A stretch of DNA of 64,000 nt from Acidaminococcus massiliensis (lineage in GTDB: Bacteria; Bacillota; Negativicutes; Acidaminococcales; Acidaminococcaceae). Position numbers and translations under genes: made by a program. The DNA is taken from positions 1,107,873 to 1,171,872 of the forward strand of contig NZ_LT608315.1 in NCBI RefSeq assembly GCF_900095825.1, written 5' to 3'. The stretch's first letter is position 1. Each line of letters starts with the position of its first letter. The notes below the pieces were generated by a model. It was not told the DNA's origin. It made no database searches and worked only from the letters and a program-made list of their open reading frames with translations. This document shows positions 2,877-55,836 of this stretch, one piece after another.

Positions 2877-2897
2877 GTTGACCGTTGACAGCGTAGG
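2877..2897. repeat. Short heptad repeat beside terminator (locus I)
   Basis: GTTGACC at 2877-2883 is followed directly by GTTGACA at 2884-2890 and the looser GCGTAGG, giving a period of 7. It abuts the hairpin at 2896. The hairpin type (GGGGGTGTGA stem) is the same as those flanking larger heptad elements at 34.4 and 55.8 kb, so this looks like a minimal member without a core. Confidence 0.5.
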
Positions 2898-2927
2898 GGG
2901 TGTGAATTTTTTCACACCCCCTTTTTT
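2896..2927 (+). terminator. Rho-independent terminator after lpxI
   Basis: Perfect 11-bp stem GGGGGTGTGAA / TTCACACCCCC with a TTTT loop, followed by six T. It separates lpxC-fabZ-lpxA-lpxI from lpxB, so lpxB probably starts its own transcript. Confidence 0.9.
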
Positions 2928-15714: not shown

Positions 15715-15729
15715 GCGGTTGCGGGCCCT

Positions 15730-15865
15730 GAGTCACGGGTCGCGGGCTAATGAGACGTGAACTTTTGTTCACGGTATGATATAATAAATACCGTATATTG
15801 ACAAGCAGCCGTACCTCCGGCTGCACCAACAAAGCCCGCGACCCGCGACCCGTGGCTCGCGACCC
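15730..15865. repeat. Heptad-repeat intergenic element, copy A
   Basis: Left arm of period-7 units (GAGTCAC 15730, GGGTCGC 15737, GGGCTAA 15744) and right arm of four exact heptads (GCGACCC at 15838, 15845 and 15859, GTGGCTC at 15852). The arms are roughly inverted complements. The ~87-bp core holds hairpins GTGAAC-tttt-GTTCAC and GCAGCCG/CGGCTGC and a TATAAT at 15780-15785 that may serve the next gene. The CCAACAAAGCCCGCGA boundary recurs in copies B (28.7 kb) and C (34.5 kb). Confidence 0.75.
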
Positions 15866-17029: not shown

Positions 17030-17212
17030 CGGCCCTATGAGAAGTCAGATACGGCCCTGAAGGGCCTTGAGACATCAGACGTCAGCTTTGTCCGGTATAG
17101 CAATAGATCCGATCTGCTTATCGCCGACAATCTGACGTCTGAAAGGCCCGCAAGGGCCGGCCTGACTTCTGCTATCTGATAAGCCCGTCAGGGCGGGTCT
17201 GACGTCCGATAT
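17030..17212. repeat. Heptad-repeat intergenic element, copy F
   Basis: Period-7 units GACATCA 17071 and GACGTCA 17078, CTGACGT 17132 and CTGAAAG 17139, then CTGACTT 17162, CTGCTAT 17169, CTGATAA 17176, and CTGACGT 17199 with CCGATAT 17206. Short GC hairpins (GGCCCTGAAGGGCC, GGCCCGCAAGGGCC) sit between the runs. The stretch from GGCCTTGAGAC through CAGCTTTGT to AATCTGACG is clearly homologous to the element at 27.0-27.15 kb. No coding potential is seen in this 268-bp gap. Confidence 0.75.
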
Positions 17213-20890: not shown

Positions 20891-22141
20891 ATGAAAAAGT
20901 CTTTAGTTTTTGCTATGGCTATGGCTCTGGGCGTCAGCGCTACCGCTTTCGCTGCCAACCCCTTCTCTGATCTGCCTGCTGGCCACTGGGCTTACGGCGC
21001 TGTTGCCAAACTGGCTGCTGCCGGCGTAGTCGACGGCTATCCTGACGGCACCTTCAAAGGCGACAAGACCATGACCCGTTACGAAATGGCTCAGATCGTT
21101 GCCAAGGCTCTGGCCAAAGGCGCTATCGGTGCTGATGACAAACTGGTCAGCGAATTCGCTGATGAACTGGACAACCTGGGTGTCCGCGTTGCCAGACTGG
21201 AAAAGAACGCTGACGCTGTGAAGATCACCGGGAACATCCGTACCCACTATGCCAACACCACTGGTGAACTGGCTAAAGGCCATGTAAGCAAGACCCGGTC
21301 CCGTCTGTTCTTCACCGGCGAAGTGAACGACAACTGGCATTATGTTGGGATGCTGCAGAACGAACAGCGCTGGGACAACGCCGGCAAGAATGATTCCGGT
21401 GACAACGACACCGACTTCCAGCGCGCTTACCTGACCGGTAACATCGGCGTGGTGAACGTGACCGCCGGCCGGTACAACGGCACCTATTCCGAAGGCAACG
21501 TGTATGATACCCGTGTGGATGCTGTGAACGCCAATGTGAAATTCGGCGCTACCTACTTGGGCGCAACCTGGGGCAAGATGGCCAACCTGGATACCTATGG
21601 CTGGACTGCTGCTGGTAAGAAAGACTCCAAGGCTGGCGAATACACCCAGGCTGTACTGGGTGGCGACATCGGCAACCTGAACCTGGAAGCCAACTACTTC
21701 CATGTGAAAGACATCGATACTGCTTGGATGACTGGCAAAGACAACATCTGGACCGCTGCTGCCACCTACAAGGCAGGCGACTGGACTGTTGGCGCTATGT
21801 ACCTGCATGGCGATGCCGATGATAAGGTTGACGGTGTAGAACCCGACAACGATGGCTGGGTAGCCAAACTGTCCTACAAGGGCGCTACCGCTTCCAAACC
21901 CGGCAGCTGGGGCCTGTTCGGCAAATACTATGACCAGGGCGGCGCTACCTACATCGCCCACACCATGAACGGCAACTACGATGCCTTCGGTCCGGACGGC
22001 TTCAAAGGCTGGATGGTTGGCGGCAACCTGACCGTGGCTAAGAACATGGTGGCTCAGGTGGAATACTATGACCTGAAAGACAAAGGTGATACCAGCGATC
22101 ATTCCAAGACCCTGTGGTCTCAGATGGTTGTTACCTTCTAA
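20891..22141 (+). CDS. ompM: OmpM-type SLH porin 2
   Basis: 416 residues with the same plan as porin 1: signal peptide 1-21, SLH domain ~23-78, coiled coil, beta barrel, terminal MVVTF. The DNA for the SLH part is identical to porin 1 over 137 nt (20945-21081 against 19256-19392), including synonymous sites, while the barrels differ, notably in the loops. This points to gene conversion or shared extreme codon selection. Strong site TAAGGAGG before ATG 20891. Like porin 1 it uses GCT, CGT and GGT codons of highly expressed genes. Confidence 0.95.
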   Translation: MKKSLVFAMAMALGVSATAFAANPFSDLPAGHWAYGAVAKLAAAGVVDGYPDGTFKGDKTMTRYEMAQIVAKALAKGAIGADDKLVSEFADELDNLGVRVARLEKNADAVKITGNIRTHYANTTGELAKGHVSKTRSRLFFTGEVNDNWHYVGMLQNEQRWDNAGKNDSGDNDTDFQRAYLTGNIGVVNVTAGRYNGTYSEGNVYDTRVDAVNANVKFGATYLGATWGKMANLDTYGWTAAGKKDSKAGEYTQAVLGGDIGNLNLEANYFHVKDIDTAWMTGKDNIWTAAATYKAGDWTVGAMYLHGDADDKVDGVEPDNDGWVAKLSYKGATASKPGSWGLFGKYYDQGGATYIAHTMNGNYDAFGPDGFKGWMVGGNLTVAKNMVAQVEYYDLKDKGDTSDHSKTLWSQMVVTF

Positions 22142-22156
22142 TTCCAGAACGATTCC

Positions 22157-22186
22157 AAAGACGGTTCCTTCGGGAACCGTCTTTTT
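22157..22186 (+). terminator. Terminator after porin 2
   Basis: AAAGACGGTTCC-TTCG-GGAACCGTCTTT, perfect 12-bp stem with a stable TTCG loop and T-run. Confidence 0.9.
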
Positions 22187-22246
22187 GCATATATTGTTAC
22201 AAAAGATACAAGAAATAAGTTATGACAAAAAGAATAACTATACATA

Positions 22247-22293
22247 TTGCTATTTATACAGAAATGTGATAAAAATATGACATATATACACTA
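22247..22293 (+). promoter_or_regulatory. Putative promoter of porin 3
   Basis: TTGCTA (22247-22252), 17-nt spacer, weak TAAAAA (22270-22275). A degenerate TGACA-N6-CACTA follows at 22278-22293. Assignment rests mostly on position shared with the other porins. Confidence 0.45.
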
Positions 22294-22316
22294 GGAACTG
22301 GAACACCCATCGTACT

Positions 22317-22437
22317 CGCTTTATCCCGGTCAGCTGACGGAAAGCTTCCACCAGCAAAAGAGGCAACAAGGAAACTCCGCAGGGTGGAAGGATCCGTACA
22401 CTGCCTGGATAAAAATAAACTCCAGGAGGAATCTCCC
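22317..22437 (+). promoter_or_regulatory. Structured leader of porin 3
   Basis: Contains CTTTATCCCGGTCAG (also upstream of porins 4 and 5), the leader motif variant GAGGCAACAAGG at 22360, and CCTGGA (22404) able to pair with TCCAGG (22421), which runs into the Shine-Dalgarno AGGAGGA. A second small hairpin GGAG-gaat-CTCC uses the ribosome site itself. Together these could hide the site and control translation. Confidence 0.55.
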
Positions 22438-23736
22438 ATGAAAAAATCTCTAGTCTTCGCCATGGCGATGGCACTGGGCATCAGCACCACTGCTTTCGCC
22501 GCCAATCCCTTCTCCGATCTGCCCACCGGCCACTGGGCCTACGGCGCCGTTGCCAAACTGGCTGCCGCCGGCGTAGTAGATGGCTATCCTGACGGCACCT
22601 TCCAAGGTGACCGGACCATGACCCGGTATGAAATGGCCCAGATCGTGGCCAAAGCCCTGGCCAAAGGGGCCATCAGCGCCGATGACAGACTGGTCAGCGA
22701 ATTTGCCGACGAACTGGACAATCTGGGGGTCCGGATTGCCAGACTGGAGAAAAATGCAGACAATGTCAAAGTCACAGGGAACATCCGTACCCACTACGTC
22801 CACACCACTGGAGACCGGGGCAGGAGCAGCGTCACCAAGACCCGGTCCCGGCTCTTCTTCACCGGGGAAGTGAACGACAACTGGCATTATACGGCTATGC
22901 TCCAGAACGAACAGCAGTGGAACAACAAGGGGAAGAACGATTCCGGGGACAGCGATACGGATTTCCAGCGGGCCTTCCTCACCGGGAACATCGGTGCCGT
23001 CGATGTGACCGCCGGCCGCTATGGCGCCTTCTATGGGGACGGCAATATCTACGATACCCGGGTGGACGGCATCAACGCCAAAACGAAATTCGGGAATGCC
23101 TATGCAGGCGCTACCTGGGGCAAGATGGCCAACAAGAGCACCTATGGCTGGACCGGCCTCAATGAAACCGATAAGGAAAAACAAGCCAAGGCCAAAGCCT
23201 CCAAAGCCGGGGAATTTGCCCAGGCTGTACTGGGCGGCGACATCGGCAACCTGAACCTGGAAGCCAGCTATTACCATATCGAAGACCTGAAAACCGACTG
23301 GGTAAGCGGCTCCAACAACATCTGGACTGCAGCTGCCAACTACAAGGCCGGAGACTGGAATGGGGGCATCATGTACCTTCACGGGGACGCCGATGAATTG
23401 GTAAACGGTGTGGAACCGGACCATGACGGCTGGGTGGCCAAATTGGGATACAAGGGTGCCACCGCCGCCAAGCCGGGGAGCTGGGGCCTCTACGCCCAGT
23501 ATTATGACCAGGGCGGCGCCACCTACGTGGCCCATACCATGTGCGGGGATTACGCGGCTTTCGGCCCTGCCGGCTTTAAAGGCTGGATGGTGGGTGGGAA
23601 CCTGACCGTGGCCAAGAACATGGTGGCCAAGGTAGAATATTACGACCTAAAGACCCGGGACGCCAATGCTGACCTGGAAATCAAAGACGGCGACCACAGC
23701 CGGACCCTGTGGTCCCAGATCGTGGTGACGTTCTAA
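22438..23736 (+). CDS. ompM: OmpM-type SLH porin 3
   Basis: 432 residues: signal peptide, SLH domain (variant GYPDGTFQGDRTMTRYE), coiled coil, barrel ending QIVVTF. Closest to porin 2 in the barrel (shared RTHY start, VEPD-DGWVAKL, GGATYVAHTM). ATG 22438 sits 7 nt after AGGAGGA; an upstream GTG reading (22384) runs through the leader and is rejected. Codons are GCC/CGG/GGG-rich, as in the rest of the genome and unlike porins 1 and 2, so lower expression is likely. Confidence 0.95.
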   Translation: MKKSLVFAMAMALGISTTAFAANPFSDLPTGHWAYGAVAKLAAAGVVDGYPDGTFQGDRTMTRYEMAQIVAKALAKGAISADDRLVSEFADELDNLGVRIARLEKNADNVKVTGNIRTHYVHTTGDRGRSSVTKTRSRLFFTGEVNDNWHYTAMLQNEQQWNNKGKNDSGDSDTDFQRAFLTGNIGAVDVTAGRYGAFYGDGNIYDTRVDGINAKTKFGNAYAGATWGKMANKSTYGWTGLNETDKEKQAKAKASKAGEFAQAVLGGDIGNLNLEASYYHIEDLKTDWVSGSNNIWTAAANYKAGDWNGGIMYLHGDADELVNGVEPDHDGWVAKLGYKGATAAKPGSWGLYAQYYDQGGATYVAHTMCGDYAAFGPAGFKGWMVGGNLTVAKNMVAKVEYYDLKTRDANADLEIKDGDHSRTLWSQIVVTF

Positions 23737-23751
23737 GGGGAAAAGGGAAGA

Positions 23752-23783
23752 GGGGCTGTTGCAGGAGCGACAGCTCCTTTTTT
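23752..23783 (+). terminator. Terminator after porin 3
   Basis: AGGGGCTGTTGC pairs with GCGACAGCTCC, then TTTTTT. The GGGGCTGTTGC stem is a recurring terminator type in this window. Confidence 0.85.
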
Positions 23784-23846
23784 CTGCGTAAAAATGTACC
23801 AAGCTATACAATATTTTCCTTATAGACCAATCCCAGCTCGGCTCCA

Positions 23847-23900
23847 TTGCGTTTACATACAAAATATGGTAAATTTATGAAAGATGACAGATTATTCACA
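23847..23900 (+). promoter_or_regulatory. Promoter and operator of porin 4
   Basis: TTGCGT (23847-23852), 17-nt spacer, TAAATT (23870-23875), then TGACA-N6-TCACA at 23885-23900, ten nt after the -10 box, as at porin 5. Confidence 0.55.
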
Positions 23901-23903
23901 CTG

Positions 23904-24025
23904 GCTTTATCCCGGTCAGGCACTGGAACGCTTTTCTTGGAACAGAGGAAACAAGGAGACTCGCGGGAAGGGAAGGACGGAGCAGGGACTGCCTGGATAA
24001 AAATAAACTCTGGGAGGAATCTCCA
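23904..24025 (+). promoter_or_regulatory. Structured leader of porin 4
   Basis: Homologous to the leaders of porins 3 and 5: CTTTATCCCGGTCAG, the motif GAGGAAACAAGG plus ACTCGCG at 23945-23965, and a TGCCTGGATAAAAATAAAC block whose CCTGGA can pair, with two G-U pairs, to TCTGGG at the Shine-Dalgarno GGGAGGA. Confidence 0.55.
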
Positions 24026-25297
24026 ATGAAAAAATCTCTGGTATTTGCTATGGCTATGGCCCTGGGCGTCAGCGCTACCGCTTTTGCGGCCAACCCCTTC
24101 TCCGACCTGCCGGCCGGCCACTGGGCCTATGGCGCTGTGGCTAAACTGGCGGCTGCCGGCGTAGTTGACGGCTATCCTGACGGAACCTTCAAAGGCGACA
24201 AGACCATGACCCGGTATGAAATGGCCCAGATTGTGGCTAAAGCCCTGGCCAAAGGGGCCATCGGTGCCGACGACAGACTGGTCAGCGAATTCGCTGATGA
24301 ACTGGACAACCTGGGAGTCCGGGTGGCCAAACTGGAAAAGAACGCGGACAATGTGAAGATCACCGGGGCTGCCCGTTATGCTACCTATACGGTAAAGGGC
24401 GGAGCTGCCAAAGCTGCTTATGGTGGAAATGAGCATGGTTCCACTCTCCGTACCCGTCTGTGGTTCACCGGAGAAGTGAATGACAATTGGCATTACACCG
24501 CCATGCTCCAGAATATCCAGAGCTTCGAAGGAAAGAATGAATCTGGGGACAGCGATACCGAATTCCAGAGAGCTTACCTGAGCGGGAACATCGGGGCTGT
24601 GAACCTGACCGCCGGCCGTTACAACGCTTTCTTCTCCGATGGGAACGTATTCGATGACCGGGCCGATGCCATCGAAGGCCGGATCAACTTCGGCAAGACC
24701 TATTTCGATGCAGCCTGGGGCAAATTGGCCAACGATGTGAACTATGGCTGGACGGCAGATGGGGATAAGAACCAATCCGCTGCAGATACCTTCTATGCCT
24801 TTGTATTGGGCGGCAACTACGGCAACCTGCATGGAGAAGCGACCTACCTGAAAGCCAATGATGTAAAAGCCATGGGCATGCAGGGCGATGACAAGATCTG
24901 GACCCTGGGAGCCGATTATCAGGCTGGCAAGCTGAATATCAATGCCATGTATCTGAAAGGCGATAATGACTACATCGATACATTGAGCGGAGCTGATGAT
25001 GACGGCTATGTGGTGGGCTTGAATTATGCCGGTGCTGAAACCAGCAAACCGGGCACCTGGGGCCTGTATGCCAAATATTATGACCAATCCGCTCCTACCG
25101 TGCTGGCACACACCATGAACGGGGATTATACGATGTTCGACACCTATGGCTTCAAAGGCTGGATGGTGGGCGGCAATCTGACCGTGGCTAAGAACATGGT
25201 GGCTACGGTGGAATACTTTGACCTGAAAGGCAAGGGCGGCGACTTGGATAACAGCCATGCCCGTACCCTGTGGTCTGAACTAAACGTTACTTTCTGA
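24026..25297 (+). CDS. ompM: OmpM-type SLH porin 4
   Basis: 423 residues: signal peptide, SLH domain nearly identical to porin 1, coiled coil (DDRLVSEFADELDNLGVRVA), barrel ending ELNVTF. Barrel strands resemble porins 1 and 5 (GNIGAVNLTAGRYNA, AYLSGN). The start follows GGGAGGA by 8 nt. It has its own promoter and terminator, so each gene of the array can be switched separately. Confidence 0.95.
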   Translation: MKKSLVFAMAMALGVSATAFAANPFSDLPAGHWAYGAVAKLAAAGVVDGYPDGTFKGDKTMTRYEMAQIVAKALAKGAIGADDRLVSEFADELDNLGVRVAKLEKNADNVKITGAARYATYTVKGGAAKAAYGGNEHGSTLRTRLWFTGEVNDNWHYTAMLQNIQSFEGKNESGDSDTEFQRAYLSGNIGAVNLTAGRYNAFFSDGNVFDDRADAIEGRINFGKTYFDAAWGKLANDVNYGWTADGDKNQSAADTFYAFVLGGNYGNLHGEATYLKANDVKAMGMQGDDKIWTLGADYQAGKLNINAMYLKGDNDYIDTLSGADDDGYVVGLNYAGAETSKPGTWGLYAKYYDQSAPTVLAHTMNGDYTMFDTYGFKGWMVGGNLTVAKNMVATVEYFDLKGKGGDLDNSHARTLWSELNVTF

Positions 25298-25323
25298 TCC
25301 GTACCAACCGGATACCTACTGAT

Positions 25324-25381
25324 GGGCTGTGCAGGCCTGGCCGATGGGAAACTGTCGGCCAGCTGTACAGCTTATTTTTTA
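25324..25381 (+). terminator. Long terminator after porin 4
   Basis: GGGCTGTGCAGGCCTGGCCGA pairs imperfectly with TCGGCCAGCTGTACAGCTT, followed by TTTTTT. The rest of the 328-bp gap holds the porin 5 promoter and leader. Confidence 0.85.
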
Positions 25382-25433
25382 TGTAACAATTTGTACAATA
25401 ATTATCTTATATCATAAATTTGATTTCACCATA

Positions 25434-25487
25434 TTGCCATTTTTCGCAAAATATGTTACAAATATGCAAGATGACACAAAATTCACA
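25434..25487 (+). promoter_or_regulatory. Promoter and operator of porin 5
   Basis: TTGCCA (25434-25439), 17-nt spacer, TACAAA (25457-25462), then TGACA-N6-TCACA at 25472-25487. Spacing from -10 box to operator equals that of porin 4. Confidence 0.55.
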
Positions 25488-25502
25488 CTCAGAAATCATA
25501 CT

Positions 25503-25625
25503 TGCTTTATCCCGGTCAGCTGCCGGAAAGCTTTCACCAGAACCAGAGGAAACAAGGAGACTCGCGAAAATGGGGGAAGTGGAAGGGACTGCCTGGATAA
25601 AAATAAACTCTAGGAGGACTCTCCA
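25503..25625 (+). promoter_or_regulatory. Structured leader of porin 5
   Basis: Same blocks as porins 3 and 4: CTTTATCCCGGTCAG, leader motif GAGGAAACAAGG plus ACTCGCG at 25546-25566, and CCTGGA pairing with TCTAGG at the ribosome site AGGAGGA. The pairing survives base changes between copies through G-U pairs. Confidence 0.55.
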
Positions 25626-26948
25626 ATGAAAAAATCTCTAGTCTTTGCCATGGCCATGGCACTGGGCGTCAGTGCCACCGCTTTCGCAGCCAATCCTTTC
25701 TCCGATCTGCCCACTGGCCACTGGGCGTACGGCGCTGTAGCCAAACTGGCTGCTGCCGGAGTCGTCGATGGCTATCCTGATGGGACCTTCAAGGGCGATA
25801 AGACCATGACCCGGTACGAAATGGCCCAGATCGTGGCCAAGGCGCTGGCCAAAGGGGCCATCGGTGCCGACGACAGACTGGTCAGCGAATTCGCTGACGA
25901 ACTGGACAACCTGGGAGTCCGGGTGGCCCGGCTGGAAAAGAACGCGGACAATGTAAAGATCACCGGTACGGCCCGGATCAGCTATGCAGATAAAAAAGGC
26001 GGGGCTTTCAAGGGAGATGGCAGCGGCAATTCCCAATCCCAGCTCCGTACCCGTCTGTGGTTCACGGGGGAAGTGAACGACAACTGGCATTACCTGGCCA
26101 TGCTCCAGAATAGACAGTATTTCCAAGGTAAGAATGAATCCGGGGACAGCGATACCGATTTCCAGAGAGCGTACCTGAGCGGGAACATCGGCGCCGTGAA
26201 CATCCTGGCCGGCCGTTTCGACGATTACATCGCTGGCGGGAACCTGTACGATGACTTCTCCGATGCGGTCCGGGCGGAAGTGAAATTCGGCCAGGGCTAT
26301 CTGTCCGCAGCTTGGGGCAAGATGGCCAATACGGATCGGTATGGCTGGCAGAAATATGATCCGGCCAAAGGGATCTTCGAAAAAAATGATTCCGTAGGGG
26401 ATACCTACTGGAACGTGGCTCTGGGCGGCAACTGGGGGAATCTCCATGGAGAAGCCACCTACACCAAGATCAACGACCAAGACTTCGGGGCCATGGCCGG
26501 CAATCCTGGTCTGGACCGGTATGACAACAAGGTCTGGACGGTAGGCGCCGACTACACCGCCGGGAAATGGAAAGCCAGCGCCCTGTACCTGAAAGGGGAT
26601 GCGGATGCCCATGGTGCAGAAGATGCGTTCGACGATGACGGATACGTATTCGGCCTGAGCTATGCCGGTGCCGAAAACAAGAAACCGGGCAGCTGGGGCC
26701 TCTATGCCAAATACTATGACCAGTCCGCAGTGACCGTGGTTTCCCACACCATGAACGGCGATTGGTACATGTTCCCCTACACCGGGTTCAAAGGCTACAT
26801 GGTGGGCGGCAACCTGACCCTGGCCAAGAACATGATCGCTTCTGTGGAATATTATGACCTGAAGAACAAGAGTGCAAGCGGCTTCGAAGACTTTACCAAC
26901 CAAGGCCATGCCCGCACCCTGTGGTCCGAGGTGAACATCACCTTCTAA
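25626..26948 (+). CDS. ompM: OmpM-type SLH porin 5
   Basis: 440 residues, the longest of the six. Signal peptide, SLH domain (NPFSDLPTGHWAYGAV), coiled coil, barrel ending EVNITF. Extra length lies in loop regions, for example around WQKYDPAKGIFEKND and NPGLDRYDNK, where surface exposure is expected. Starts at ATG 25626 behind AGGAGGA. Codon use is the genome-average GC-rich type. Confidence 0.95.
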   Translation: MKKSLVFAMAMALGVSATAFAANPFSDLPTGHWAYGAVAKLAAAGVVDGYPDGTFKGDKTMTRYEMAQIVAKALAKGAIGADDRLVSEFADELDNLGVRVARLEKNADNVKITGTARISYADKKGGAFKGDGSGNSQSQLRTRLWFTGEVNDNWHYLAMLQNRQYFQGKNESGDSDTDFQRAYLSGNIGAVNILAGRFDDYIAGGNLYDDFSDAVRAEVKFGQGYLSAAWGKMANTDRYGWQKYDPAKGIFEKNDSVGDTYWNVALGGNWGNLHGEATYTKINDQDFGAMAGNPGLDRYDNKVWTVGADYTAGKWKASALYLKGDADAHGAEDAFDDDGYVFGLSYAGAENKKPGSWGLYAKYYDQSAVTVVSHTMNGDWYMFPYTGFKGYMVGGNLTLAKNMIASVEYYDLKNKSASGFEDFTNQGHARTLWSEVNITF

Positions 26949-26965
26949 TCACCTGATTGGAAGCA

Positions 26966-26999
26966 AAAAAACGGCTCTCCCCATAGGAGGGCCGTTTTT
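26966..26999 (+). terminator. Terminator after porin 5
   Basis: AAAAACGGCTCTCC / GGAGGGCCGTTTTT with a CCATA loop; ends in TTTTT and also has an A-run on the 5' side. Confidence 0.88.
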
Positions 27000-27009
27000 C
27001 GGTCTCACG

Positions 27010-27147
27010 CCGAAGAAGAAGTCAGAAACAGCCCCAAAGGGGCCTTGAGACGTCAGCTTTGTTCGGCATAGCAGCAAATCCGTCCTGCTTTTCGCAAACA
27101 ATCTGACGGCTGTCCTCTGAAAGGCCCAAAAGGCCGGTCTGACGTCT
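27010..27147. repeat. Heptad-repeat intergenic element, copy G
   Basis: Homologue of copy F (17.1 kb): GGCCTTGAGACGTCAG, CAGCTTTGTTCGGCATAGCA, AATCTGACG, CTGAAAGGCC and GGTCTGACGTCT occur in the same order. Period-7 structure is weaker here. No open frame of interest; the 366-bp gap otherwise holds the terminator, the porin 6 promoter and its leader. Confidence 0.7.
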
Positions 27148-27160
27148 TTATTTCCCCTCC

Positions 27161-27195
27161 TTGCCAAATTAATTAGCACGGTGTATAATTTGTGA
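27161..27195 (+). promoter_or_regulatory. Promoter of porin 6
   Basis: TTGCCA (27161-27166), 17-nt spacer, TATAAT (27184-27189), the best promoter of the array. Only a half-site TGTGA follows (27191-27195). Confidence 0.75.
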
Positions 27196-27250
27196 AGTAA
27201 AGTTAGAAAAAACTAACTTATTTTTCTTTCCCTTCCCTGCGGCGCTGGCG

Positions 27251-27271
27251 GAGGAAACACGGCAACTCCTG
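27251..27271 (+). promoter_or_regulatory. Conserved porin leader motif, copy 6
   Basis: GAGGAAACACGG followed by AACTCCTG, 64 nt before the start; the most diverged copy. Confidence 0.55.
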
Positions 27272-27314
27272 CTGGCTGGGAAGGAAAGAGGGAAACCACA
27301 AGGAGGCTTTACCT

Positions 27315-28583
27315 ATGGATAAAAAAATGATGCTGGCCCTGGCTCTGGCCTTGGGCATCAGCGGGACGGCCCTGGCGGCCAATCCTTTCTCCGATCTGCC
27401 TGCCGGCCACTGGGCCTATGGAGCTGTAGCCAAACTGGCGGCGGCCGGGGTGGTGGACGGGTTCCCTGACGGTACTTTCAAAGGGGACAAGACCATGACC
27501 CGGTACGAAATGGCCCAAATCGTGGCCAAGGCTCTGGCTAAAGGAGCCATTGGCGCCGATGACAAACTGGTCAGCGAATTTGCGGACGAACTGGACAATC
27601 TGGGCGTTAGAGTATCCAAACTTGAAAAGAACGCAGACAATGTCCAGATCACCGGGGAAGTACAGATGAGTTACCGGAATGATTCCGGGGCCGCCACCGG
27701 CAAGGGCAGCGAATCCGATCTCCGGACCCGTCTGTGGTTCACCGGGGAAGTGAACGACAACTGGCATTATGTGGCCATGCTGGAAAATCACCAGTACTTC
27801 GGCGGCCGGAACGAATCCGGGGACAGCGATACGGATTTCCAGAGAGCTTTCTTGGACGGCCGGATCGGGGTCTTGGAACTGAAGGCCGGGCGGTATGATG
27901 AATTCCTAGCAGATGGAAACATTTACGATAACCCGGTGGACGGGATCAAGGCCAAGGTACCCCTGGGCCATGCTTCCTATCTCCAGGCTGCCTACGGCAA
28001 GATGGCCGATGTGTCCGGGTTCGGCTATATGAGCGATGAGGAAAAGGTATCCACCGCCGACAAGTTCTGGACCAGCGAACTGGGCGGGGACATCGGCAAC
28101 CTGCACCTGGCGGCCACCTACACCAAGGCGGACAATGTGACCTTCCTGGATGGGGCGGACAATGAGATCTGGACCGCCGGAGCCGGGTACCAGGCCGGCA
28201 AGCTGGGCATCAACGCCATGTACCTCCGGGGCAGCAACGACTACGAAAAAGACCGTGACTGGGACAAGGACGGCTGGGTGGCCGGGCTGACCTACGGCGG
28301 GGCTGAAAGCGACAAGCCGGGCAGCTGGGGCCTTTTGGCCACTTATTATGACCAGAGCGCTTCCACGGTGATCGACCATACCATGGATGGCAATTGGGAT
28401 GCCTTCATCCCAGGAGACAACGGGATCACCAACGGGTTCAAAGGCTGGAAAGTGGGGGGCAACCTGACCCTGGCCAAGAACATGGTGGCCGAAGTGGATT
28501 ACTACGACCTGAAAGGCAAAGAAGGGGACCAGAACGGGAAACACGCCCGGACCCTCTGGAGCCAGCTGGTGGTGACATTTTAA
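27315..28583 (+). CDS. ompM: OmpM-type SLH porin 6
   Basis: 422 residues. The signal peptide differs from the others (MDKKMMLALALALGIS), but the SLH domain (DGFPDGTFKGDKTMTRYE) and barrel ending QLVVTF keep the plan. The most diverged member, with GGG/GCG/GTG-rich codons and a leader lacking the CTTTATCCCGG block. AAGGAGG precedes ATG 27315. Confidence 0.95.
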   Translation: MDKKMMLALALALGISGTALAANPFSDLPAGHWAYGAVAKLAAAGVVDGFPDGTFKGDKTMTRYEMAQIVAKALAKGAIGADDKLVSEFADELDNLGVRVSKLEKNADNVQITGEVQMSYRNDSGAATGKGSESDLRTRLWFTGEVNDNWHYVAMLENHQYFGGRNESGDSDTDFQRAFLDGRIGVLELKAGRYDEFLADGNIYDNPVDGIKAKVPLGHASYLQAAYGKMADVSGFGYMSDEEKVSTADKFWTSELGGDIGNLHLAATYTKADNVTFLDGADNEIWTAGAGYQAGKLGINAMYLRGSNDYEKDRDWDKDGWVAGLTYGGAESDKPGSWGLLATYYDQSASTVIDHTMDGNWDAFIPGDNGITNGFKGWKVGGNLTLAKNMVAEVDYYDLKGKEGDQNGKHARTLWSQLVVTF

Positions 28584-28588
28584 AGAAG

Positions 28589-28751
28589 GGGGATGAAAAT
28601 ATCACCCCCCGGTCGCGGGTCACGAGCCTGGACGTTTCATCCGTTTGTCCTTTTCCATATAATGATAAGATAAGGTCGAATGGAAACTGTAAAATGGAAT
28701 CTTGGGTCCATGCCAACAAGCCCGCGATTTACGACTTACGACTCGCGAGCA
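28589..28751. repeat. Heptad-repeat intergenic element, copy B
   Basis: Starts with hairpin GGGGGATGA/TCACCCCCC, then heptads GGTCGCG 28611 and GGTCACG 28618, a ~100-bp core with TATAAT at 28658, and four right-arm heptads (GCGATTT 28724, ACGACTT 28731, ACGACTC 28738, GCGAGCA 28745). Alignable with copy C over its whole length, core included (for example TGTCCTTTT, CCAACAAGCCCGCGA). Confidence 0.75.
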
Positions 28752-28801
28752 AAGCGGCTGTGAAGAAATGGTTTTTCATTTCTTCACAGCCGCTTTTTTT
28801 T
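28751..28801 (+). terminator. Strong terminator after porin 6 / element B
   Basis: Perfect 20-bp stem from AAAGCGGCTGTG to CACAGCCGCTTT, loop GTTTTT, followed by a T-run. Lies between the converging porin 6 and NlpC/P60 genes. Confidence 0.9.
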
Positions 28802-30141: not shown

Positions 30142-30438
30142 TAAGAAAGGCTGTTGCATGAGCAACAGCCAGGTAAACAGTCAACTGTCAACGGCCGGGA
30201 AGGGCGTGCCTTTGGCCCGCCCTACAGCGTTGGTGTCGGATGCTCGATTACGAGAATCTGGGAAATGGATTTTTCGATAATTCCGTTTCTGTGATTTTTC
30301 GTTGTTCCTATGACTCCAACGTGGTAGGGGCTCCCCGCAGGGGAGACCGTCCCGGCCGCCCAGAGGGCAAATATGTTCAGCGGAAAATGCCTGGCATTTG
30401 GCATCCAAAACGATGAACGATGAACGACCAACGATGAA
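30142..30438. repeat. Heptad-repeat intergenic element, copy E
   Basis: Fills most of a 419-bp gap. It starts with hairpin GGCTGTTGC-atga-GCAACAGCC, then heptads AGGTAAA 30171, CAGTCAA 30178, CTGTCAA 30185; ends with four heptads CGATGAA (30411, 30418, 30432) and CGACCAA (30425). The core has an inverted pair CCCTACAGCGTTGG (~30220) and CCAACGTGGTAGGG (~30317) and a GGGCTCCCC-type hairpin. Part of the core (30320-30371) matches 53084-53140 in reverse. No gene seen. Confidence 0.75.
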
Positions 30439-30476
30439 ACCTCAGGTCCCCCGGCCGCTGACTGCCTTTCTTATGG

Positions 30477-33752: not shown

Positions 33753-34391
33753 ATGAAAAAATTCTGGCAAACGCTGTCTGCCGTCGCTTTCAGTGCAGCA
33801 CTGACGCTGCCTGTCTTCCAGCAGGCGGAAGCAGGGACTTTTACGTTTACGCCGTCCAAGCCGGCAGAAACCACCGCCCAACAGCAAACTCCTGCTGCAA
33901 CGCCTCAGGTGAAATCCCTGAAATTGGCTGTGGTGCCCTTGATGATCGGGGAAAAGGTAGAAGACAATGAAGGGATGAAACCCATCGTTTTCAGCAATGA
34001 AATCGCCAAGGCTTTCCAATATCCCGAATATGATATGGTGGATTCCGATGTGGTCCGGAAAGTGGCTCTCCAGGAACAGGACAACCTGTTTACCCAGGCC
34101 GGGCTGGAAGCAGTAGCCAAAGCCAGCGGCGCTGACGTGGTCATCGTCATGGCTGTGGACAAGTTCGACGTAACGGAAGACAACTTCCGCAGGGAACCCA
34201 TGACCATCCTGGATTACCAGGGGCGGTTCGCTACGGTGAACATGCTGAACCACAAATTCAAAAAAGACAACTGGCATTACGGAAGGGAAATGGAATCTGG
34301 AGCCATCAATCCCCGGTCCGACTGGCCTCATCACGAATTCGGCCTGTTCTGCCGGAGAGAGCTGAAAAAAGTGATTAAGAACAATAAATAA
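33753..34391 (+). CDS. Secreted protein, possible CsgG/TolB-N-like fold
   Basis: 212 residues: signal peptide (1-27, ending AEA), a Pro/Thr/Gln linker, then an alternating alpha-beta domain (LKLAVVPLMIGE, AFQYPEYDMVDSDVV, ASGADVVIVMAVDKF). That pattern is typical of the anticodon-binding-like fold in CsgG, LpoB and TolB-N, periplasmic proteins of outer-membrane machines, but similarity is only of pattern. The C-terminal 60 residues (WHYGREMESGAINPRSDWPHHEFG) are not recognised. AGGAGG lies 11 nt before the ATG. Confidence 0.65.
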   Translation: MKKFWQTLSAVAFSAALTLPVFQQAEAGTFTFTPSKPAETTAQQQTPAATPQVKSLKLAVVPLMIGEKVEDNEGMKPIVFSNEIAKAFQYPEYDMVDSDVVRKVALQEQDNLFTQAGLEAVAKASGADVVIVMAVDKFDVTEDNFRREPMTILDYQGRFATVNMLNHKFKKDNWHYGREMESGAINPRSDWPHHEFGLFCRRELKKVIKNNK

Positions 34392-34392
34392 A

Positions 34393-34600
34393 GGGGGTGT
34401 GAAAGAATCCACACCCCGGGGCCGCGGGTCGCGGGTCACGGGTCGCGAGCCAGGAGGTTCAAGCCGTATGTCCTTTTTCTATAGGAAGGGTACGACAAAA
34501 TCGTCTGGAACTTGCAAAACTGGATCTTCGGTCTGTACCAACAAGCCCGCGACTCATGACTCGCGACCAAAGGGGCTGTTGCATAAGCAACAGCCCCTAT
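34393..34600. repeat. Heptad-repeat intergenic element, copy C
   Basis: Hairpin GGGGGTGTG/CACACCCC, then four heptads (GCGGGTC at 34424 and 34431, ACGGGTC 34438, GCGAGCC 34445), a ~95-bp core, CCAACAAGCCCGCGA, heptads GCGACTC 34549, ATGACTC 34556, GCGACCA 34563, and hairpin GGGGCTGTTGC-ataa-GCAACAGCCCC (34572-34597). The most complete example of the layout: hairpin, arm, core, inverted arm, hairpin. Confidence 0.8.
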
Positions 34601-55538: not shown

Positions 55539-55836
55539 AAAAGGGGCTGCTGCCTGGGCAGCAGTCCCTTTTTGTCACTGGTCAACGGTCACTGGTCACT
55601 GGCCGATGGAAAGAACCCGTGGCTGACGGGTTCTTCCGAATAAAAATAGGAATGTGCCTTTCTTTTAATCCGTTGCTTGTCTTGGTTTCTTCTGGAGAGG
55701 CAAGGACAAGCCAAAGGCGCGTCTGAGCCAGCATCATACAATGAAAGGCAGCCGCAGCCCGGCTGCCTTCCTTCGTCCAGTGACTAGTGACAAGAGACCA
55801 GTGACCGGGGGTGTGATTTTATCACACCCCCTTTTT
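55539..55836. repeat. Heptad-repeat intergenic element, copy D, with flanking terminators
   Basis: Hairpin GGGGCTGCTGC-ctg-GGCAGCAGTCCC with T-run (55543-55573), then heptads GTCACTG (55574, 55588, 55595) and GTCAACG (55581); a ~175-bp core with hairpins AAGAACCCGT/ACGGGTTCTT and GGCAGCCG/CGGCTGCC; four inverted heptads CCAGTGA (55777, 55798), CTAGTGA 55784, CAAGAGA 55791; then hairpin GGGGGTGTGAT/ATCACACCCCC with T-run (55807-55836). It fills the whole gap between converging queE and sbcC. Confidence 0.8.

Follow-up and report, generated by a model that had tools for sequence, protein, structure and literature searches.

Inverted heptad arms suggest a link between an apparently mobile non-coding element of Acidaminococcus massiliensis and PF05635-encoding elements

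A 64-kb window of the Acidaminococcus massiliensis genome (the whole stretch of 64,000 nucleotides analysed here) harbours a composite of hairpins and tandem 7-bp repeats, termed element C, which is bordered on the left by a gene (33753-34391) lacking Pfam matches at E 1e-5 and on the right by a DUF535 gene (from 34627). The locus raises the question of which of these parts belong to one unit and what kind of unit this is. With a probability of roughly two in three, C is a non-coding, apparently mobile element of a class whose hallmark is inverted arms built of tandem 7-bp repeats and whose coding members carry a gene of family PF05635. We read C and a second element of the window (D) as putative non-coding relatives of rRNA intervening sequences (IVS).

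Architecture and families of the heptad elements

Element C (34393-34597) is composed of hairpin 1, GTCGCGG-type heptads, a core of ~95 bp, inverted heptads, the triplet AAA and hairpin 2 (Table 1), in agreement with the original prediction that it starts and ends with a hairpin. D carries its hairpins in mirrored order (55543-55831), also as predicted, its neighbours being a radical-SAM gene and, on the other strand, an SbcC-like gene. The RNA of C is predicted to fold into three consecutive stems (hairpin, arm stem, hairpin; -104.6 kcal/mol, z -7.3), as is that of D (-165.3 kcal/mol, z -12.6), with none of 200 shuffles being as good in either case. C is intergenic and not situated in 23S rRNA, and a PF05635 reading frame is absent from between its arms. 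An Rfam scan of the 64-kb window returned three tRNAs and no other family; group II introns had no match there at the gathering score. With RNAalifold, 30 copies of C yielded 8 pairs, all of them in the arms and none changed on both sides; a conserved RNA structure within the C core was rejected due to this lack of covariation.

Table 1 Heptad elements and associated hairpins in the window
Feature	Position	Strand	Remark
Hairpin 1 of C, GGGGGTGTG...CACACCCC	34393..34417	.	Flush with the heptads, moves together with the unit
Left heptad arm of C, GTCGCGG / GTCACGG units	34418..34451	+	TRF period 7 at 34419-34447
Core of C	34452..34544	+	30 aligned copies, mean column identity 82 %, no internal covarying pair
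Right arm of C	34545..34568	+	Heptads inverted relative to left arm
Hairpin 2 of C, GGGGCTGTTGC...GCAACAGCCCC	34572..34597	.	Most likely resident terminator
Terminator hairpin left of D	55543..55568	.	Resembles the one terminator present at the empty G401 site
Element D: GTCACTG heptads, core, inverted heptads	55574..55806	+	9 near-full copies in the A. massiliensis genome
Hairpin 1, right end of D	55807..55831	.	Missing from the empty sites of G401 and G405
Second C-family copy	28611..28742	+	Followed by strong hairpin 28751-28796
Element B: C-type heptads around a different core	15715..15865	+	Alignments with G398 and G401 continue through B
Element E, AACGATG heptads	30193..30439	+	22 matches in G401, 2 in G398
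Inverted-repeat element, GTCAGA-type units	17040..17170	+	78 % match ~1.4 kb from the PF05635 gene at C4:2022669
GTTGACC remnant (two units), then hairpin 1	2877..2921	.	The 2.9-kb locus

With C as DNA query, 21 matches were obtained in the A. massiliensis genome, 16 of which (C included, one partial) extend beyond short arm matches and share 73-100 % identity. Among nine Acidaminococcus genomes searched, C-family matches are confined to A. massiliensis (16), G398 (19) and G401 (3, one of just 28 bp), the six other genomes having none. D as query yielded 28 matches in the A. massiliensis genome, comprising the near-full copies, one split copy and short pieces of arm or core; two D copies reside on a small contig (G000:C3, 41.5 kb). 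Since cores and heptads differ, C and D represent two families; a single unit comprising both, as had been proposed, was rejected. The unit is dispersed in many copies and occurs in either orientation, the number of heptads differs among copies, and the adjacent genes vary from copy to copy. This dispersal of families with conserved cores suggests mobile elements.

The core of B has no second copy detectable by DNA search in the A. massiliensis genome, E is strongly amplified in the sister genome G401, and in G398 the site of the second C-family copy contains no more than one heptad array and hairpins. A palindrome like AAAATTTGC..GCAAATTTT recurs within heptad elements of differing families (L038, L246, L248, L268). 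The region 20891-28583 of the window is occupied by a series of similar long open frames (~420-450 aa), to several of which relatives align simultaneously.

Orthologous sites and assignment of the hairpins

The site of D was compared in eight other genomes of the genus, five of which are uninformative because the right flank is located elsewhere. In G401 and G405, one terminator and no element are present, providing two clean empty sites for D. Relative to these, D plus hairpin 1 has been added in A. massiliensis, and the terminator of G401 resembles hairpin 2 of A. massiliensis. G398 has a different heptad element (GTCAACG-type units) at the same terminator. T-runs border D on both sides, T-runs being terminator features anyway, and no clear target duplication could be distinguished from them at this site.

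In case of the C site, the element is present in G398 (L164), a different heptad element occupies the site in A. fermentans WCA-389 (L086), and in five relatives that are more distant (L087-L091) a single hairpin is present. Comparison of 14 C-family loci of G398 with 36 loci of A. massiliensis revealed four sites in common, one of them by a single flank. In the stretches compared between the two genomes, gap lengths differ by at least 60 bp at nine sites; a heptad array is present in one or both genomes at seven of them, two of which consist of the terminator alone in A. massiliensis. At site L239 7564, G398 carries an element with two hairpins; this site does not resemble insertion at a resident terminator, since A. 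massiliensis has no terminator there. A further site (L179/L074) contains a full C element in G398 and just the fused arms in A. massiliensis, which looks like a deletion. Judged from the distribution of copies and the site comparison, C and D are probably mobile.

As an alternative without mobility, heptad arrays could grow at terminators by replication slippage and fold-back copying, with the composites evolving in place. Such a process would account for the variable number of heptads among copies and for the orthologous copies L057 and L164, which differ in heptads and hairpin 1; it is nevertheless improbable, as dispersed copies share conserved cores, sister sites are empty or hold an unrelated element, and coding members (see below) have the same ends. 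Even less probability, indeed very little, is assigned to a regulatory RNA device (attenuator or antiterminator) that selection maintains because it controls adjacent genes: it would fit the strong folding and the position at gene ends, but the neighbours vary by copy, sites are empty in relatives and the core lacks covariation.

A strong hairpin was found near the left flank in 35, near the right flank in 26 and near both flanks in 22 of 39 C and D copies from three genomes, compared to 15, 17 and 0, respectively, of 234 control positions obtained by shifting the same positions by 500-900 bp. In 238 kb of the A. massiliensis genome, a hairpin lies beside 11 of 13 intergenic period-7 arrays versus 50 of 291 random intergenic pairs, a count based on a crude gene mask that hid C itself and including some hairpins internal to the element. 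The two hairpin types differ in their association. Hairpin 1 has 24 exact occurrences in the A. massiliensis genome, of which 22 abut heptads as judged by eye (three of these, L011, L306 and L307, adjoin just one short or partial heptad) and two do not (L010, L014). Hairpin 2 occurs 30 times genome-wide, and from 15 occurrences read, five abut heptads, one is doubtful and nine do not. Independence of the hairpins from heptads, which would speak against the original prediction, is therefore found for hairpin 2 and not for hairpin 1. We assign hairpin 1 to the element, and hairpin 2 most likely represents the resident terminator. Duplication of a whole terminator upon insertion was rejected, given that left and right hairpins differ even in copies 97-98 % identical to D.

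From the proposed unit with two distinct ends, inserted in either orientation rather than formed by chance neighbours, there thus remains a repeated unit with an end-specific hairpin; the assignment of both hairpins to that unit does not. Similarly, the C hairpins had been attributed to B, E and the 2.9-kb locus, which applies to the latter (hairpin 1 at the GTTGACC remnant) and not to B, with a different hairpin at its left flank, or to E, where neither motif is present.

PF05635 genes between heptad arms and inside structured RNAs

Enclosed by the arms of the split D copy (C4:1275999-1276758) is an intact gene of family PF05635 (23S_rRNA_IVP, Avd-like), a link invisible to the original prediction because this copy is located outside the window. 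This copy matches D positions 1-62 at 85 % and positions 125-232 at 88 % identity, and the gene lies in between. The reading frame matches PF05635 with 131 bits, and the protein is related to the solved structure 2gsc; matches to Avd models of diversity-generating retroelements (DGR) are weak (E 5.5e-10 and 2.6e-6, the latter under the curated cut-off). D shares its ends with this coding copy. In case of C, no coding parent was found among 109 PF05635 loci at E 1e-4, and none of these has a C-type core.

The A. massiliensis genome possesses two PF05635 genes, one within clear D arms and the other with weaker heptad arms recognized by eye, the latter being scored as a miss in the period-7 statistics. 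Across 398 genomes of the phylum, a PF05635 match was detected in 74, above the cut-off in 61. Flanks were analysed for 71 loci (2 from A. massiliensis, 29 from the phylum search and 40 further), a period-7 array being defined by 11 of 14 positions within 160 bp of the gene. Such arrays are present on the left side in 42/71 and on the right side in 37/70 loci, on both sides in 31/71 and on neither side in 22/71. Other periods (5, 6, 8-11) are found at 0-8 loci (maximum 8/70), and period 7 one kilobase off the genes at 7/68 and 5/70. The two flanks of a locus match each other in inverted orientation above the 99th percentile of mismatched pairs in 41/70 and in direct orientation in 14/70 loci. 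With 26 loci added (97 in total), the best period is 7 in 61, 8 in 8 and another in 6 loci, with 8 ties and 14 loci having none.

PF05635 matches were also obtained in 29 plasmid records. Among 13 plasmid loci, mostly cyanobacterial, the gene is accompanied by period-7 arrays in 10, by 8-bp units in two and by no array in one; at least one of the plasmid arrays is direct and not inverted. The gene may be located inside operons, e.g., between cas6 and cas4. On the cyanobacterial plasmid loci L252, L256, L261 and L254, its flanking genes are either cas6 and cas4, or cas10 and a Cmr3-family gene, or ribonucleotide reductase genes. One contig (G294:C150) harbours four PF05635 matches within ~5 kb, out of seven in that genome. 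A phage origin was rejected, as one PF05635 protein used as query had no match at E 1e-5 in 50,697 phage records.

Alternatively, C and D could be miniature transposons of a conventional type. The heptads would then represent iterated end binding sites for a transposase of DDE, HUH (RAYT-like) or another type that is encoded elsewhere, and PF05635 would be a passenger. Inverted terminal repeats, the dispersal and D as an internal deletion relative of a coding copy would all be expected on this account. It appears unlikely, though, since the heptad sequence varies among families while the unit length stays 7, and since in many genomes the arms lie so near to the PF05635 gene that a second gene would not fit between them.

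An Rfam scan of 80 of the 109 PF05635 loci placed the gene inside 23S rRNA in 7 and inside RNase P RNA in 3 loci (L131, L133, L136), two of the latter from one genus. As RNase P RNA accounts for ~0.02 % of such a genome by our own arithmetic, 3/80 is not expected by chance. In the alignment of L131, the insert falls within an RNase P RNA helix that we take to be P12, and the heptad arms prolong the stem; L133 and L136 have the same context. STRR are known from RNase P RNA of cyanobacteria and from a tRNA-Leu intron. At L144, L152 and L157, a tmRNA gene lies ~0.1-0.5 kb from the PF05635 gene.

Arms were found on both sides at 36 loci, 28 of which are coding elements of other Bacillota outside 23S and RNase P RNA. 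A strong hairpin directly outside the arm was found in none of these 28 (control positions 1/213), and several of them, as judged by eye, occupy the gap that separates a stop codon from the following ribosome-binding site. Flanking hairpins were therefore rejected as a trait of the whole class; end hairpins characterize the Acidaminococcus families and the RNA insertions.

The same observation concerns an RNA-mediated route, in which a transcript ending at hairpin 1 plus U-run would be copied into DNA by a reverse transcriptase acting in trans and inserted into another terminator at its T-run, with PF05635 assisting as Avd does in DGRs. D ends in hairpin 1 followed by a T-run and starts just after the T-run of the resident terminator (C being mirrored), the PF05635 protein matches Avd models, and DGR requires a target hairpin/cruciform whose stem sequence is free to vary (excerpt of PMC3240598). 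We consider this route rather unlikely, as elements elsewhere are found in operon gaps without a hairpin and the T-runs may be chance features of terminators.

A proposed class and its comparison with known systems

Under the preferred reading, i.e., C as a member of a heptad-armed class whose coding members carry PF05635, C and D may represent relatives of coding elements that were internally deleted or had their sequence replaced. Pairing of the arms in the transcript would seal off the insert in a single long stem next to the terminator, comparable to the helix extension by such arms in 23S or RNase P RNA, so that insertion would do little harm. Conceivably, the Avd-like protein acts in trans on arms, hairpin target or transcript and thereby moves the element, and a protein footprint or a copying step might be the cause of unit length, not sequence, being conserved. 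Several observations stand against this reading: C is without a coding parent, 22/71 loci (including one A. massiliensis gene) have no period-7 array on either side, flanks match directly in 14/70, some plasmid units measure 8 bp, hairpins are found at 0/28 coding elements, site L239 7564 deviates, and the C core shows no covariation.

One may further speculate, more tentatively, that a single widespread mobile class, with no transposase, nuclease or reverse transcriptase of its own, unites the heptad-armed PF05635 elements with their non-coding derivatives, and that an Avd-like multimer sets the 7-nt unit and places the element in harmless spots of transcripts. Such spots would be rRNA loops, the RNase P RNA helix, operon gaps and, in Acidaminococcus, terminators. 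If true, this one class would have left its traces in the 23S IVS as well as in the so far unexplained heptamer repeats found in cyanobacteria and other bacteria; and if the protein moves the element, this would constitute a mode of DNA mobility without a known enzyme. An Avd-like gene in inverted 7-bp arms is the architecture common to Bacillota, cyanobacterial plasmids, two structured RNAs and, in its multicopy non-coding form, sites beside terminators. IVS elements and bacterial heptamer repeats have each long been unexplained, and the shared architecture makes both testable in one system.

Among known systems, group IIC introns also insert beside terminator hairpins, and differ in that the window contains no match to a group II intron family at the gathering score. 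MITEs and REP/BIME elements are likewise short, non-coding, dispersed inverted-repeat elements between genes; in contrast to these, the ends of C and D are 7-bp arrays varying by family, and the coding relative has PF05635 and no known transposase. DGRs resemble the heptad elements in Avd being a PF05635 homologue and in the target hairpin with free stem sequence, as given in the excerpt of PMC3240598, whereas no reverse transcriptase, template or variable repeat was seen between heptad arms.

Heptamer repeats or STRR of cyanobacteria, Xanthomonas and Beggiatoaceae are tandem intergenic 7-bp units as well, some of them inverted (excerpts of PMC4692102 and PMC4679880). Heptamers are described for Xanthomonas and Nostoc in an excerpt of PMC4692102, according to which no detailed literature on heptameric repeats existed as of 2015, and for Beggiatoaceae as TAACTGA units (PMC4679880). 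Unlike the heptad arms considered here, they are presented in these excerpts as repeats without an associated gene. Among the literature matches listed, none links heptamer arms to the PF05635 gene family except for the Coxiella IVS heptamers (PMC4990558). In that case, tandem GACAGAT heptamers of variable number precede the S23p ORF within the 23S IVS, the function and origin of IVS being called unclear in the excerpt of the same source (PMC4990558). The 23S rRNA IVS (S23/IVP gene, PF05635), which are further characterized by removal from the transcript through RNase III, share with the heptad elements the inverted arms forming a long stem, the PF05635 gene in coding members and, in Coxiella, the tandem heptamers; they are described in 23S rRNA helices, whereas C is non-coding, intergenic, multicopy and located beside terminators.
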